Notes under the pieces: model-generated
Told to the model about the DNA's origin: nothing
Seen by the model: only the letters and a program-made list of their open reading frames with translations
Databases searched by the model: none
NCBI GenBank assembly: GCA_029210015.1
Contig: JARGOE010000019.1
Coordinates: 7,381 to 39,695, forward strand
Reading direction: 5' to 3'
DNA from: Vicingaceae bacterium
Lineage (GTDB): Bacteria > Bacteroidota > Bacteroidia > Flavobacteriales_E > Vicingaceae
Length of the DNA stretch: 32,315 nt
In this document: piece after piece, positions 8,829 through 16,077 of the stretch
How positions within the stretch are numbered: the first letter of the stretch is position 1
Layout: every line of letters starts with the position of its first letter
Made by a program: the position numbers and the translations under genes

Positions 8829-9854
8829 TCATCGCTTCTTTTTAACATTAAATCGCTTTGCAAAGAAGAATTTTACGTTATGAGTACTAGGTCTTATTTC
8901 AAAGTTTTTAAATTCAAAATTTCCTGTTGTAACGTAATTGGTTAATCCTATTAAAAAATGTTTGTTTTCATAACCTAGTGCCGATCTTGCTACAAACCTA
9001 CTTGCACCACCTGTGCTTGTATTTTTCTCACCGGAACTGGAAAAAACAATTAATCGCTGAGCACCAATACCTGGAATAGCAGTTAAATTAATAAAGAATC
9101 GTTTCCAAAATACAAATGTATAGGTATACCCAAATGAAATACCATAATTGATTGATCTGTATGCGCTTAAAGCAAAACTATCTTGAACCTCTTGTGGGAA
9201 GTATTTCGGCACAAAAAAACTGGTAGCACCAGGATCAAACCCTGCATAATCTATATTATAATAGCCTCCCAATAAAAAACTACCTGCACTCTTTTTTTGT
9301 ACTGCATTTCTTACATATGCAGCTTTATAAGATAGCTTCTTATTATTAAAAACATAATAGCCTCCTACTCCAACCGAAAGAGTTTGCATTGAATCCCGCT
9401 GTGGAAATGGAATAGAATCCCAAGTCGTCAATGCAGTTGGATTACTTATGTGAAACCCTCTATAATTTTGAGCAAAAGCATCTATTACAAATTTTTTGCT
9501 GTAAATATTTAACTGAAAATCAAACCTAGAGGTCTTACCATAAATTTTTTCATCTTGAGCAGATGCAGGTAACCCAAATGCAATTCCAAGCCCCAACCAT
9601 TTATAATTAAACCCAAATCCCAAACTTGATATCCCATGAGGTTTCAACTCTAGAAATTCCATTCCATTTTTGTTTACTATTTCAAGACTATTACTCTTAA
9701 CGACCGACATCATCTTCAATAAAAGCTGATCAGAATAATCCGTATAGTATGTTGTTTGAGTAGTTGTATCTACTGGATGAGTATCCAATTCCACTTGTGC
9801 TTGAGTAGAAATAGAAAATAAAAATAGTATGAGAAAGTGTATGACTGTTTTCAA
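8829..9854 (-). CDS. DUF4421-like outer-membrane beta-barrel protein
   Basis: Signal peptide KTVIHFLILFLFSISTQAQ, then beta-barrel-like sequence ending FFFAKRFNVKKKR. Start placed at TTG 9854 because the track ATG at 9938 overlaps the upstream gene by 74 nt and precedes the signal peptide by 28 codons. Confidence 0.6.
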   Translation of the reverse strand: MKTVIHFLILFLFSISTQAQVELDTHPVDTTTQTTYYTDYSDQLLLKMMSVVKSNSLEIVNKNGMEFLELKPHGISSLGFGFNYKWLGLGIAFGLPASAQDEKIYGKTSRFDFQLNIYSKKFVIDAFAQNYRGFHISNPTALTTWDSIPFPQRDSMQTLSVGVGGYYVFNNKKLSYKAAYVRNAVQKKSAGSFLLGGYYNIDYAGFDPGATSFFVPKYFPQEVQDSFALSAYRSINYGISFGYTYTFVFWKRFFINLTAIPGIGAQRLIVFSSSGEKNTSTGGASRFVARSALGYENKHFLIGLTNYVTTGNFEFKNFEIRPSTHNVKFFFAKRFNVKKKR

Positions 9855-9864
9855 AACTAATATG

Positions 9865-12800
9865 TTACCTAAATAAATACATTTTACCAAAGCCCTTTTT
9901 AAAATAACTATCTGCCGAGGTATCGCGATGTTCAACATCTTGTGAATTAATTTTAGTTATAACATGATATAAGTAAACTCCATTTGCTAATCTATCGCCA
10001 TAGGTGTCAGTACCATCCCAAACAAAGTCACTTATATTTCGCCCTATATGAATCAACCCTAATTCATCCTTATGAATCTCCCTTACGACCTTACCTGTAA
10101 TAGTCATAATCTGTATTTTAAACACTTCTGGGATTTCCCTTCCTGTTAAAGTAAATACAAAACGTGTAGAGGTTGAAAAAGGATTGGGGTAATTTACAAT
10201 ATTCGTTATTGTTGACTTATTAATTACCTCAAACCCTATTGTGTAATCAATGTCTCCAGAATTATTATCTGTTCTGTCTGAAGCTTGAACCCTCAGTTGA
10301 TATTCTCCATCAACTAGAAATTCTCCCTGCATAATTATTTTAGAATTATTCCGAGGAAGAGATGCAGGGACAAATTGCATTATTTCTTGATTATTCTCAT
10401 AAAAATAAACTCGCTTTTCCGTCCCTCCTGGAGCAGTAATATAGACTGAATAATCAGAAGTATCATTCAACATTAAATATTGATTTTCATCTGTTAACTC
10501 AATAACAATCTCTGCTATAGGTGAAACAATATCTCCATCTAATATATGTACTCCATCAAAAGTCACATCCAATATTGGATTAATATTATCCTCTCCAACA
10601 TAGAATGGTATTTGAGCCACATTATTAAAATGATACTTTTCTAATTGGTCGTTATTTGGATTTACATCTATCAATAAACTATTTAAACCAGGAAAACCAT
10701 AGCTAGAAAAAGTAATCCTTGCTATTAAAATACTATCTGCTAATAATGGTTTTTGCCTTAGATAAGGCAAATAATGTGTTTGATTATTTTTATCTAAAAC
10801 TGCAAAGGAAATTAATAAACTATCCATATCATATCTGCTGATATTTTTAATAGCAATTTCAACTGTTATATCCTGACCTTCTTGAACTGTGTCATTTTGC
10901 AGTGAAAAATAAATATTAGGATCTAATGCTGCTTCAGGAACATCGCCATAGGTTACATGCCAACGGTCCAATTGAGGAGCAGTAAATAATGAATCATCAG
11001 ATAAGTAAGCATTCAATTTTAGGTAAGGATAAGTATTTGCATCAATCGTATTTGTTAATCGAATCTCTAAAGAATCTGTCGGCAGATTAGCTATAACTAT
11101 TGTTTCATTCCCTGAAGTATCTATTCCTATTACATTTAAAACTGAACTGTCTTGTGAGGTTGGCAATTCAATAGAACTCATTCTCCATGAAAGTGAATCC
11201 CATCGTGTTGCAGGTCCTATAACAGGTGAGTATACATTTGCATAATTTGCATTAGTAGTTAACGTTTTTGAAAGCTGTATGTTTTTGTGATTTATAGAAT
11301 CTCCTATCACTTCAATATTGGCTGCAGCATTGCCTTTTTGATGATATAATAAAAACGGTAAAGAATCTTGAATAGCAGCAATTTGATTAGCCCCCATATT
11401 CGTAAACTCCGCTTTTAAACTAAGAGGCATAGGCGTATAACCAGGGAAGGTTTTAAAGTGCCAAGTCCAAATTAACACATGGTAGCCATTCGGCACAGAG
11501 TCTGCTAACATGTTCTCCATACCAGCCATTTGTACTGGATTATTGTACCTAAAAATAAATTGGTGCCTAGTAGAGCTGTTATTAAAGCCATTTGTATTCG
11601 CTTGCCCCATATTTTTGTCATCGGCAGACCATGGTTCTAATGTTAATGAATCTAAAACTGAAACATGAAGAGCAGTTGTCGTTAACCACCCATTTTTGGC
11701 TAATAAATCTGCATCAATAAATGCAGAAATTTTATTTAGTTCACTCCATTCTGCAGCGCCATAAGTCGTTCCTCTTAAAAGTTTAACATCATTTACAAAT
11801 TCCCATCTCCAATTATTTCTATTATGATTTACAAATTGTAAATTATCATTTTCAAATTGAAAGAAATGATCTTGCTGCCACCCTTCTTTGCTCGGAATAT
11901 ATTGGAATGATCGCAACCTCCAATTATATCCCGAAGTATTTATAGAATCTTTACTAACACGCCAAAAATACACCATACTATCTGGCATATTTTGTAATAA
12001 AGTTGGTGTCCAAGAAACAATTCCTCCAGGATGATTAATAGTAGTAGTTTGTTTTATAGGGCTGTTAAAATAATCCGTGGTATCTATTTCAAACACATAA
12101 TTTTTAGCTGGTTCGAATGGAAAAGCTGTTGATGCGCTTAATGTAATTCCTTGATTTGGAACTATCATAAACTCATAAGGGTAAATAGGAACTATTTCTC
12201 CTGATTGAATATTTAAAGATTTTGTTACCGTATTATTTGTTTCAAAACTTTCAGCTACAGCATTTATAGCATCAACTGTAATGGTGAAATTATTTAATCC
12301 TAAACCTCTTACAATATCTACTGGCAAAGTAAAAGTTAAGGTATCCTTAAATTTTGTTCCTGAAAAGACTTTAATATAGGTAGTATCGGGAAAAGATTGC
12401 TCTGGAAAATCTCGTACTAATTCTAAAATAATAGAGTCATTTATTGCTCTTCCTAAATTTGTTACAACCACATTCACATCAAATGAATCTAAATCAGAAG
12501 TAACCACTGTAGGAGAAAAAGTAATTGTTGGAGCTTCAATCATATAGTCTGGCATATCAAACCCATTTAATTTTAAAGATGGGTCACCATGCAGTGTAAC
12601 AGAAGATGCTGTTACATTTTGAAAAAAACCACCTTGAGTAGAAACAATAGTGTTCTTAATCGTATTACCTATACTTCCTTTATAGTTTTTGTAGGATACA
12701 TTTTTATAAAATTCTGAAGCATACAAATGTAAATATGAAGAAACCCCTAAATCTACAGAAGCAACAAATCCAATAACTCCCTGATTATCAATAATCACAT

Positions 12801-14907
12801 AGTCTTCACTCGTGCTATTCCCATCAGTTCCATGAATATCTCCAGTAAAGCATGATAAGCCTAATAAAAGCGGATATTTCCCATTTTGGGGATACCAAAA
12901 TTGTGGGTCTTGAATATTTTGGTCAAAACCTCCAGTTGCAGAGGCATGTCCAAAAAATGTCATTAACGAAACCCCAGAAGCAATATAACTTTTAATAGAA
13001 TCTGATAAAACATTTTGAATTGGTGCAGTGGAACTTTTTGAAAAAGAAATTACATTTCCGCCAAACAAAGTATCTTCATAAGTGTTCTTATAACTATTAA
13101 GATTAGCCATAAACCCTAAAGATTCTGATAATGATGTTCCTCCTCCAAAATGAAGTGCTTGCTTCATCCATTCGTTACTTGAAGTTGGGCTTAAAGCTGG
13201 AGGGTTTTCATGCTGACTCATCTTATTTAAATACCATGTCACCTCTATACCTGACTTTGCAGCTAACCTCCCTGTAGGAAATAAAGGCTCATAATTTGTT
13301 CCATTTAATCCAGAAGTTAACATATTATCCGATGCAGGGCTACCGTAACTTGGAACTAAGTTTTCAGAAAACGCCTGTAGATTTTTTCTTGAATCTTTAT
13401 TTTTAATAGATTTCCCCATTAAAAATAAATAATGTGGTGTTGATGTCCAATTGTCCGCAATAAAATCAGAGAATCCTCTTATCGCATAAGGGTGTTTTTC
13501 TATACCATAAGCAAATTGATCATATAACTCTTCAACATTAAAAACAATAGCATTCTGAGGGTTATTCCCTGCACCAATATTTAAACGATAATTTGCATAA
13601 TCATTCGCTTGTGACATTAATGTAGGGTGGGTAACAATTAGAAATGCTGTATCTATCTGACTAGCTATATAGTCAGTGAAATTACCCGAACCATTAACAG
13701 GTGTTATGGTCAAAACATTATTTACTTGACCTACAGAACTAACATAGCACTTTTTATTTGAGGAAGAATTTGGGACTAAACATTTAAAATTACCTCCAGA
13801 TTGAACTACAGCTATTCTTTTCCCATTAGTTAAATCATAGAACAATACATTTCCCGAATTATTAAAATTTGTAAAATTTAAATATGACTTTGTTTCTGTT
13901 GGGTGGTCAGAAATATAGAAATTACTATACTCTGTTAACCCTTCCATGTTTGGAGTGTGAGGATAGGTAATATTTACATAAGCTAATGTTTGTCTATCTG
14001 CACTAGATCCTAAATCATTAATTATTTGAAAGGTTATTGGTGTAGTAATAGCTCCTAAATCACCAACAGGAACACTCATTTGAACATCGATTTTTTGATA
14101 CCCTCCAAAAATACTGTCTATAACATTACTCCCTAAAGAAACTCTTAGGTGATGATCTAATACCAAGCTTGCATAATCAGATTCTCCTAGAACAACTGCT
14201 TTAATAGTGGCATTACCTCCTAAATAATAAACATTTTGAGTAGCTAAATTTTTAGTTTTAAAATCTGGGTACCAAGGACTAAAAGCATCAAACTCATTAT
14301 CAAACCAACCTTCTGTAGGAACATAACCAAAAGATGTTCCTCCTACAGAATTTGTCTCTCCATCAAAGTATTTAGCATTATAAAACTGAACATTCTCTTT
14401 ATTAAATGAGGGGATTGGTGAGTAAGCAGTGAAATTTGTATCTGTTTCTATTAATAATCGATTATTTGAAGTGCTACTGTTCCAAGTTATAAAATAATTA
14501 ATAGTATCATTTATTAAACTATAATAAGGGTTGGGATGATTGTTTGACCCTCCATAAAATTGTGACTCATTCCAACCATCATTTTTCTCTGCAAAAAACT
14601 CTATAAAATCTGCACCATTAAATATATTATCACCTTCTCCTTCTATGTAAATAGGAATTTCAGTTCCTCGAGCAAAAACTTGTAAATTTTTAGGGTTTAA
14701 TGTAGCTATAGGAATTCCGGCATTAGCTAAAGTGGTTGAATCAATTCTATAAATGCCCGTTTGAGCTACCTTTAACTTATAATACTGTTGACTATAATTA
14801 ATCCAACTATTACCATATGGCTGAGAAAACACAGTTAGTGATGATAGAAACAACAATACGAAGAGTAAAGTGATAGACTTATATGATATGTTATATTTCT
14901 TTACCAA
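9865..14907 (-). CDS. C25-family cysteine peptidase, PorU2-like putative type IX secretion sortase
   Basis: FFGHASATGG (His654) and LLGLSCFTGD (Cys686) match the gingipain/PorU catalytic dyad with 32-residue spacing. CARDB-like repeats and C-terminal FlgD-like module (NYPNPFSTSTRFVFTL...VWDGTDTYGDRLANGVYLYHV). Confidence 0.8.
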   Translation of the reverse strand: MVKKYNISYKSITLLFVLLFLSSLTVFSQPYGNSWINYSQQYYKLKVAQTGIYRIDSTTLANAGIPIATLNPKNLQVFARGTEIPIYIEGEGDNIFNGADFIEFFAEKNDGWNESQFYGGSNNHPNPYYSLINDTINYFITWNSSTSNNRLLIETDTNFTAYSPIPSFNKENVQFYNAKYFDGETNSVGGTSFGYVPTEGWFDNEFDAFSPWYPDFKTKNLATQNVYYLGGNATIKAVVLGESDYASLVLDHHLRVSLGSNVIDSIFGGYQKIDVQMSVPVGDLGAITTPITFQIINDLGSSADRQTLAYVNITYPHTPNMEGLTEYSNFYISDHPTETKSYLNFTNFNNSGNVLFYDLTNGKRIAVVQSGGNFKCLVPNSSSNKKCYVSSVGQVNNVLTITPVNGSGNFTDYIASQIDTAFLIVTHPTLMSQANDYANYRLNIGAGNNPQNAIVFNVEELYDQFAYGIEKHPYAIRGFSDFIADNWTSTPHYLFLMGKSIKNKDSRKNLQAFSENLVPSYGSPASDNMLTSGLNGTNYEPLFPTGRLAAKSGIEVTWYLNKMSQHENPPALSPTSSNEWMKQALHFGGGTSLSESLGFMANLNSYKNTYEDTLFGGNVISFSKSSTAPIQNVLSDSIKSYIASGVSLMTFFGHASATGGFDQNIQDPQFWYPQNGKYPLLLGLSCFTGDIHGTDGNSTSEDYVIIDNQGVIGFVASVDLGVSSYLHLYASEFYKNVSYKNYKGSIGNTIKNTIVSTQGGFFQNVTASSVTLHGDPSLKLNGFDMPDYMIEAPTITFSPTVVTSDLDSFDVNVVVTNLGRAINDSIILELVRDFPEQSFPDTTYIKVFSGTKFKDTLTFTLPVDIVRGLGLNNFTITVDAINAVAESFETNNTVTKSLNIQSGEIVPIYPYEFMIVPNQGITLSASTAFPFEPAKNYVFEIDTTDYFNSPIKQTTTINHPGGIVSWTPTLLQNMPDSMVYFWRVSKDSINTSGYNWRLRSFQYIPSKEGWQQDHFFQFENDNLQFVNHNRNNWRWEFVNDVKLLRGTTYGAAEWSELNKISAFIDADLLAKNGWLTTTALHVSVLDSLTLEPWSADDKNMGQANTNGFNNSSTRHQFIFRYNNPVQMAGMENMLADSVPNGYHVLIWTWHFKTFPGYTPMPLSLKAEFTNMGANQIAAIQDSLPFLLYHQKGNAAANIEVIGDSINHKNIQLSKTLTTNANYANVYSPVIGPATRWDSLSWRMSSIELPTSQDSSVLNVIGIDTSGNETIVIANLPTDSLEIRLTNTIDANTYPYLKLNAYLSDDSLFTAPQLDRWHVTYGDVPEAALDPNIYFSLQNDTVQEGQDITVEIAIKNISRYDMDSLLISFAVLDKNNQTHYLPYLRQKPLLADSILIARITFSSYGFPGLNSLLIDVNPNNDQLEKYHFNNVAQIPFYVGEDNINPILDVTFDGVHILDGDIVSPIAEIVIELTDENQYLMLNDTSDYSVYITAPGGTEKRVYFYENNQEIMQFVPASLPRNNSKIIMQGEFLVDGEYQLRVQASDRTDNNSGDIDYTIGFEVINKSTITNIVNYPNPFSTSTRFVFTLTGREIPEVFKIQIMTITGKVVREIHKDELGLIHIGRNISDFVWDGTDTYGDRLANGVYLYHVITKINSQDVEHRDTSADSYFKKGFGKMYLFR

Positions 14908-14982
14908 GCAATATATTAGTTATAATAAATACGTAATTAACCCATAAAGTTACACATTTAACAATAAAAAATTAATTGGAAA

Positions 14983-16077
14983 TTACTGAATACTAGGTGT
15001 TCCAGTATTATTCTGCTTATTAATATCAAACCTTAAAGAAAAGATGTTTGAATATAAGGCATCAGATTGATCGCCTATGTCAGAAAAAGCATAATCTAAT
15101 GCTATCCCTTTAAACTTAATTCCAATACCAAAATTCGGCTGATAAGTAATTTTATCATTATTTAAAATATCTGTCACCTTTTGAAAGTTTCCTACTCCAA
15201 AACGCAAAAATATCATTCTACTATAACCAACTTCAACTCCCATATGAGGATCGACACTAACTGGATCTCCAGTAATTAGTACATTACGCTTACCGTCAGT
15301 ACTCATATCAAAATTAATTTCTCCTAAGGCACTAAATTTATTGCTTATCCGAACTTCTTTACCTATTCCAAAAATAAACTTAGGCAAGGTAACTTCTAGA
15401 GAGTTTTCAGGAATTTCATTATTAGTAGCATTAAACACATCTATAGTTTCTTGAGAGAGAGAAAAACTCCATGCATTAAAAGTAGATGTAACATCTCTTG
15501 CCATCAAGCCAAACTTCCATGTTTTATAATCATATTGAGCTCCTGCATCAATTCCAAAACCCCAAGCTTTTGCAAACTCTCCTACATTACGATAAATAAT
15601 TTTAACGTTTGCTCCATAACGAAGCCCTGGCAACTTTGCCTTTCGAGCATAAGAGAAAATAAAAGCATAATCAGCTACAGAGAAAGATGAAATTCTATCA
15701 TAATCAACATTTCCATCAGCATCTATTAATTGTGTAGTATTTGGAATATCATCTACTCCAAATCGAACGATAGAAAATGCAAAAGCACTAGAAGTATCAA
15801 TTCTTGCTGCAAAGGCCCCATAATCGTACTTAGCAATCCCAGCAAAATATTCTGCATGCATTAAGCTTACTTGAAAATCTTTAGTAATTTGAGTTAATCC
15901 AGCAGGGTTCCAGTACCCAGATGTAACGTCATTTACTGAAGTTACATAAGCATTAGACATTCCTAGAGCTCTAGCCCCAACACCAATAGACAAAAACTCA
16001 TTACTATACTTCCGTGATGTCTGTGAAAACACATCTACAGTTATAAAAATTAATGCTATTAGTACAATTTTTTTCAT
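14983..16077 (-). CDS. PorV/PorQ family outer-membrane protein
   Basis: FLSIGVGARALGMSNAYVTSVNDVTSGYWNPAGLTQI, characteristic of the PorV/PorQ family; immediately upstream of the C25 peptidase gene. Confidence 0.85.
   Translation of the reverse strand: MKKIVLIALIFITVDVFSQTSRKYSNEFLSIGVGARALGMSNAYVTSVNDVTSGYWNPAGLTQITKDFQVSLMHAEYFAGIAKYDYGAFAARIDTSSAFAFSIVRFGVDDIPNTTQLIDADGNVDYDRISSFSVADYAFIFSYARKAKLPGLRYGANVKIIYRNVGEFAKAWGFGIDAGAQYDYKTWKFGLMARDVTSTFNAWSFSLSQETIDVFNATNNEIPENSLEVTLPKFIFGIGKEVRISNKFSALGEINFDMSTDGKRNVLITGDPVSVDPHMGVEVGYSRMIFLRFGVGNFQKVTDILNNDKITYQPNFGIGIKFKGIALDYAFSDIGDQSDALYSNIFSLRFDINKQNNTGTPSIQ

Follow-up and report, generated by a model that had tools for sequence, protein, structure and literature searches.

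PorU2 and PorV2 in a Vicingaceae bacterium: a conserved gene pair and candidate second sortase-like pair of the type IX secretion system

PorU is treated as the sortase of the type IX secretion system (T9SS). Type A cargo is shuttled by PorV to the attachment complex, and PorU cuts off its C-terminal domain (CTD) and joins the cargo to anionic lipopolysaccharide (A-LPS); PorU itself and PorZ keep their own CTDs, which are bound to PorV and PorQ, respectively (PMC10202324). Here we analyzed a stretch of 32,315 nt from a Vicingaceae bacterium (GCA_029210015.1, contig JARGOE010000019.1, positions 7,381-39,695 of the forward strand), in its entirety called the window, which carries porV2, encoding a barrel of the PorV/PorQ family, porU2, encoding a large C25-family peptidase, and a gene for a DUF4421 protein. 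The comparisons described below establish porV2 and porU2 as a conserved unit, with DUF4421 outside of it, and lead us to propose, with about even confidence, that PorU2 and PorV2 may represent a second sortase-like pair, in which PorU2 would process cargo alongside PorU and replace it where porU has been lost. Both families are already listed, as putative, in NCBIfam (June 2026), and we found no paper that tests PorU2 or PorV2, the papers searched containing no mention of PorU2. New here are the operon, a FAM3/ILEI-like domain, the unusual conservation of the CTD, independent losses of porU and the demotion of DUF4421.

The porV2-porU2 pair and its neighbors

Open reading frame (ORF) calls and profile searches place three consecutive genes on the minus strand of the window:

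porV2, 14983-16077, minus strand: 364 aa, outer-membrane beta-barrel of the PorV/PorQ family
porU2, 9865-14907, minus strand: 1680 aa from a TTG start, C25-family putative T9SS sortase/peptidase
DUF4421 gene, 8829-9854, minus strand: 341 aa from a TTG at 9854, probable outer-membrane barrel protein, PF14391

An earlier note on this DNA had described three co-directional genes with little space and no terminator between them, encoding a PorV/PorQ-like barrel, a C25 peptidase of 1680 aa and a DUF4421 protein, and both the arrangement and the identities were confirmed (NF052325, 517 bits; PF01364, 160 bits; PF14391, 168 bits). The gaps measure 75 bp between porV2 and porU2 and about 10 bp between porU2 and the DUF4421 gene, and no terminator-like site was seen in either gap by a scan, a type of search that provides weak evidence. 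The longest ORF of the DUF4421 gene (8829-9938) would encode 369 aa; since the starts of its relatives show about the same spacing from porU2, the true start is probably at 9854, 10 nt past the porU2 stop, giving 341 aa including a signal peptide.

The protein encoded by porV2 matched NF052325 ('putative PorV2'; 'PorVQ2') over its full length with 516.9 bits (cut-off 325) and the PorV/PorQ family NF033709 with 106.4 bits, and it failed the models of PorV (NF033710, 33.8 bits, cut-off 250) and PorQ (NF033711, 70.3 bits, cut-off 220), its best solved relative being PorV (6h3i, E 0.001). Likewise, PorU2 passed NF052324 ('putative PorU2') with 718.1 bits (cut-off 450; model positions 2-879 of 879) and stayed below the cut-off for PorU (NF033707, 206.9 bits in three stretches, cut-off 420). 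In a tree of C25 proteins PorU formed a separate, fully supported clade (support 1.0), and thus PorU2 is no recent copy of PorU. The large size of the peptidase, which had been taken as a hint at a dedicated complex, does exceed that of canonical PorU but is not distinctive, about 1680 aa being the normal length for members of this putative family (most close relatives have 1630-1760 aa). A family profile built from 24 PorU2 sequences matched the crystal structure of PorU from P. gingivalis (6za2, positions 36-761, 8.9e-32) and more weakly the gingipains (9.5e-12); the window PorU2 as a single phmmer query against the PDB gave nothing at 0.01.

The genome carrying the window (a 2.43-Mb assembly, 82% complete, with the window on contig 110) also encodes canonical PorU (1387 bits) and PorV (503 bits) at C94, so that the search for canonical porU and porV suggested in the earlier note located both of them. 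They lie beside a gldJ-like gene, named from position and homology without a family model, and canonical PorQ is found at C113 (384.6 bits). In addition, CTD matches over their cut-offs numbered about 82 for type A and 31 for type B. With PorU, PorV, PorQ and CTD cargo signals all present in this T9SS genome, the window pair is its second pair of the PorU/PorV type. The same genome contains a further PorV-family paralogue (L343:2392-7573, G000 C55; 360 aa, 146 bits) directly after a 1352-aa protein without Pfam match (40 bp) and a 783-aa ORF, and the paralogue and the 1352-aa protein may form another cargo-plus-barrel pair.

Among the named loci, 68 extend far enough for the gene order to be read, and in 64 of these porV2 directly precedes porU2; the porV2 stop and the porU2 start often overlap, an arrangement resembling that of genes with coupled translation. 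Directly upstream positions were also observed in all 19 loci of the window's order and in 9 of 21 loci of a wider class sample, and no porV2 turned up next to the longer and more distantly related PorU2-like genes in the rest of the phylum. Every genome of the window's order (46/46) gave a match to the PorU2 model, 38 of them over the cut-off, and several of the others represent fragments in incomplete assemblies. Cultured species among the carriers of PorU2 include Crocinitomix algicola and Taishania pollutisoli (L271, L303). Among 198 genomes across the phylum, PorU2 exceeded its cut-off in 22, PorV2 in 36 and both in 17. We regard it as improbable that PorV2 has its own task in shuttling or anchoring other cargo and shares an operon with PorU2 without sharing a function. 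The higher frequency of PorV2 (36 versus 22 genomes) would agree with such separate roles, as would Flavobacteriaceae-like genomes that keep PorV2 and its pssA-like neighbor without PorU2, but the gene order is tight and overlapping in most PorU2 genomes, and both proteins are jointly absent from one genome (G150). At loci L323-L327 PorV2 stands beside pssA without PorU2, and at L323 the next gene encodes a protein that distantly resembles Lnb (lipoprotein N-acyltransferase) and scores below the cut-off of that family. At two further loci (L156, L159) tandem or flanking duplicates of porU2 surround a single porV2.

The third gene, whose product is a clear DUF4421 member (PF14391, 168.4 bits, gathering cut-off 32.1), had been counted in the earlier note as part of one cassette and as a candidate third component. 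That the DUF4421 protein is an obligate part of a single complex with PorV2 and PorU2 appears very unlikely. Such a complex would agree with the position of the gene directly after porU2, at short spacing, in 13 genomes from two genera of the window's order, but DUF4421 is downstream of porU2 in only 2 of 65 named loci, in 5 of 20 loci of the window's own order and in none of 39 from the wider class and phylum. Elsewhere in the phylum, genomes with both genes carry them on different contigs, and G219, from the same genus as the window, lacks DUF4421. Moreover, a second DUF4421 gene (L345:3658-6879, G000 C119) is found inside an arsenic-type operon, together with genes for an ArsR-type regulator, DUF6428, an SBF-family (arsenite-carrier-like) transporter and a low-molecular-weight phosphatase. 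The neighborhood counts rule out DUF4421 as a conserved third component, and of the three genes whose co-occurrence across Bacteroidota the earlier note had proposed to check, only porV2 and porU2 form a conserved unit. A model of the DUF4421 protein from a three-sequence alignment gave a low-confidence barrel (predicted local distance difference test, pLDDT, 63) with unspecific matches to OmpT-, OmpG- and FadL-like barrels (template modeling scores, TM, mostly 0.2-0.45); a viral-contig scan found no further relatives, and a literature search no match. The protein is probably a generic outer-membrane barrel whose gene seems to have moved in beside porU2, as a neighbor specific to this lineage. 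The other neighbors of the three genes are ordinary, with exbB and exbD downstream and a divergent CDP-alcohol phosphatidyltransferase gene (pssA-like) upstream, followed by genes for a deaminase, sigma-54, fumarase and others.

Loss of porU in one family of the class

No PorU over the cut-off was found in three near-complete genomes, G007 (2 contigs), G091 and G126, of one family of the class (f3). All three carry PorU2, with best copies of 815, 844 and 824 bits, respectively, and two copies each in G091 and G126, as well as PorV2, PorV (432, 404 and 357 bits) and 10, 48 and 90 type A CTD matches. The usual gene order elsewhere is gldJ-porU-porV, followed by an ispF-like gene; in these three genomes gldJ and porV are adjacent (L359, L360, L361), and no porU remnant was detectable in the 367-535 bp between them. 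On a gldJ+PorV tree the three genomes stand apart, with the PorU-bearing genomes G150, G033 and G115 in between (supports 91-100), and this interleaving implies three separate losses of porU. Within the same family, G150 possesses PorU and lacks both PorU2 and PorV2, and G115 combines an intact PorU with a porU2 split into four ORFs (L158; one TGA and one TAG inside), which could reflect decay or an assembly error. None of the seven genomes sampled in this family lacks both PorU and PorU2. The reciprocal pattern in these seven genomes is suggestive without being statistically firm, and the pattern of the three losses is consistent with PorU2 as an alternative to PorU in function. Because PorU2 remains in genomes from which PorU has disappeared, the term 'accessory' may be too weak for it.

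Domain architecture of PorU2

The following features were assigned within porU2:

C25 peptidase domain, aa 422-780, 12568-13644, minus strand: PF01364, 160 bits
putative catalytic His654 codon, 12946-12948, minus strand: invariant in 137/137 PorU2, aligned with His in 20/20 PorU
putative catalytic Cys686 codon, 12850-12852, minus strand: invariant in 137/137 PorU2, aligned with Cys in 20/20 PorU
CARDB immunoglobulin (Ig)-like domain, aa 802-896, 12220-12504, minus strand: PF07705, 26.7 bits, cut-off 22.7
FAM3/ILEI-like domain, aa about 1014-1204, 11296-11868, minus strand: PF15711 in relatives and profile against the PDB
CTD, resembling a T9SS signal, aa 1563-1680, 9868-10221, minus strand: FlgD_ig, Por_Secre_tail (weak)

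The C25 domain is followed by CARDB and other Ig-like domains and then by the FAM3/ILEI-like region. For aa 780-1680 AlphaFold2 returned a confident multi-domain model (pLDDT 86.5), and a Foldseek search with this 901-aa C-terminal model matched mostly multi-Ig proteins with TM < 0.2, which indicates only an Ig-rich architecture. The ILEI family PF15711 matched the region of aa 1014-1204 in 42 of 54 relatives (best 1.7e-10), the window copy alone giving no match, and a profile of this region had the POMGnT1 stem and FAM3A, B and C as its top solved structures (1.8e-4 to 4e-3). None of the seven PorU examined contained such a domain, which makes up part of the additional length of PorU2. The POMGnT1 stem binds N-acetylglucosamine (GlcNAc) via Arg129, Asp179 and Arg207 (PMC9802357). 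Glycan binding by the ILEI-like domain was rejected, and sugar binding by PorU2 cannot be claimed, since the columns aligned with two of these ligand residues, Asp179 and Arg207, are not conserved and contain mostly N/Y/T and N/S/G, respectively.

At the C-terminus, FlgD_ig was recognized in all 24 members analyzed and Por_Secre_tail, weakly, in 9 of them. The CTD is the most conserved region of PorU2, with a mean pairwise identity of 0.51 versus 0.34 for C25. In 12 genomes with both proteins, the PorU2 CTD was more conserved than the PorU CTD in 51 of 66 pairs, and the C25 domain of PorU2 was less conserved than that of PorU in 65 of 66 pairs. High conservation of the CTD is expected if this domain must fit one fixed partner, and we infer that PorV2 is the natural candidate for this partner.

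The strongest rival to our proposal is a PorV2-anchored surface protease without sortase activity. PorU2 would then be cargo of the T9SS, a C25 protease anchored at the surface that serves to mature or degrade other proteins but does not remove CTDs, and PorV2 its private shuttle and anchor, similar to PorQ for PorZ. We consider this a genuine possibility, if one we lean against. It agrees with the CTD as the most conserved region of PorU2, with the tandem porU2 genes around one porV2 (L156, L159), with the precedent of cognate barrels for PorZ and for type B cargo, and with the PorV-family paralogue 40 bp after the 1352-aa protein in the same genome. However, the N-terminal half of PorU2 is PorU-like and not gingipain-like, and PorU2 outlasts three independent losses of porU in genomes that keep T9SS cargo. 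The CTD cannot separate the two explanations, since PorU also has a retained CTD.

A putative sortase-like pair compared with known systems

If PorU2 and PorV2 form a second sortase-like pair, PorU2 would be exported via Sec and then by the T9SS, would retain its own CTD and, by analogy with PorU and PorZ, would be held at the surface by this CTD docked in PorV2. There it would cleave the CTD off cargo and might transfer the cargo to a surface acceptor, acting together with PorU in genomes that have both and substituting for it where porU was lost, with DUF4421 as a local addition. The sequence data support the parts, the operon and an overlap with PorU, and cleavage or transpeptidation by PorU2 is putative. 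The second dedicated sortase complex suggested by the earlier note accordingly stands as a second, conserved PorU/PorV-like pair with an invariant dyad, for which sortase activity is only predicted.

Several observations weigh against this proposal. The literature searched reports neither biochemistry nor genetics of PorU2. Nor are the two proteins strictly paired, as PorV2 occurs without PorU2 over the cut-off in 19 genomes and PorU2 without PorV2 over the cut-off in 5, with PorV2 kept beside pssA in Flavobacteriaceae-like genomes, and the tandem porU2 genes near one porV2 also fit PorU2 as cargo of PorV2. By counts, the reciprocal pattern in seven genomes is not significant (hypergeometric about 0.29). 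PorU is absent without PorU2 from G130, G134 and G182, which may or may not have a T9SS, and G147 lacks both proteins and has PorV and 14 CTD matches. Since genomes without PorU and PorU2 exist, loss of porU need not be compensated. Finally, the two POMGnT1 ligand residues discussed above are not conserved in the FAM3/ILEI-like domain. A bolder version, in which PorU2-PorV2 would be a self-sufficient second T9SS sortase that replaced PorU on three or more occasions, with the sortase being exchangeable and the FAM3/ILEI-like domain serving a different surface acceptor or cargo set, strikes us as unlikely.

Were another enzyme able to fill the role of PorU, this would change the view of how cargo is sorted between release and anchoring, and it would bear on residual processing in PorU mutants and, across Bacteroidota, on PorU as a target for drugs. 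No PorU-type protein other than PorU2 was found in the three PorU-less genomes, which makes the role of PorU2 directly testable there.

Compared with known systems, the window pair resembles PorU-PorV (6za2; NF033707, NF033710), with which it shares a homologous N-terminal region, a C25 domain with a Cys/His dyad, a CTD and the position of the gene beside a PorV/PorQ-family barrel. In contrast to PorU, PorU2 belongs to a separate clade, has 1630-1900 aa, contains a FAM3/ILEI-like domain and is accompanied by PorV2 instead of PorV, and the gene order is porV2-porU2 beside pssA rather than gldJ-porU-porV. PorQ-PorZ is similar in that a PorV/PorQ-family barrel is thought to keep a surface protein in place through its uncleaved CTD; however, PorZ is not a C25 peptidase, and PorV2 scores below the cut-off for PorQ, which is encoded elsewhere in the genome. 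The gingipains (RgpB, C25) share the C25 catalytic fold and a CTD, but they match more weakly, and PorU2 has the N-terminal region of PorU and many additional C-terminal domains. FAM3/ILEI proteins and the POMGnT1 stem (PF15711) possess a domain homologous to that in PorU2, although Asp179 and Arg207 are not conserved in the latter. The window proteins belong to the NCBIfam families NF052324 and NF052325, both of which are named as putative only.

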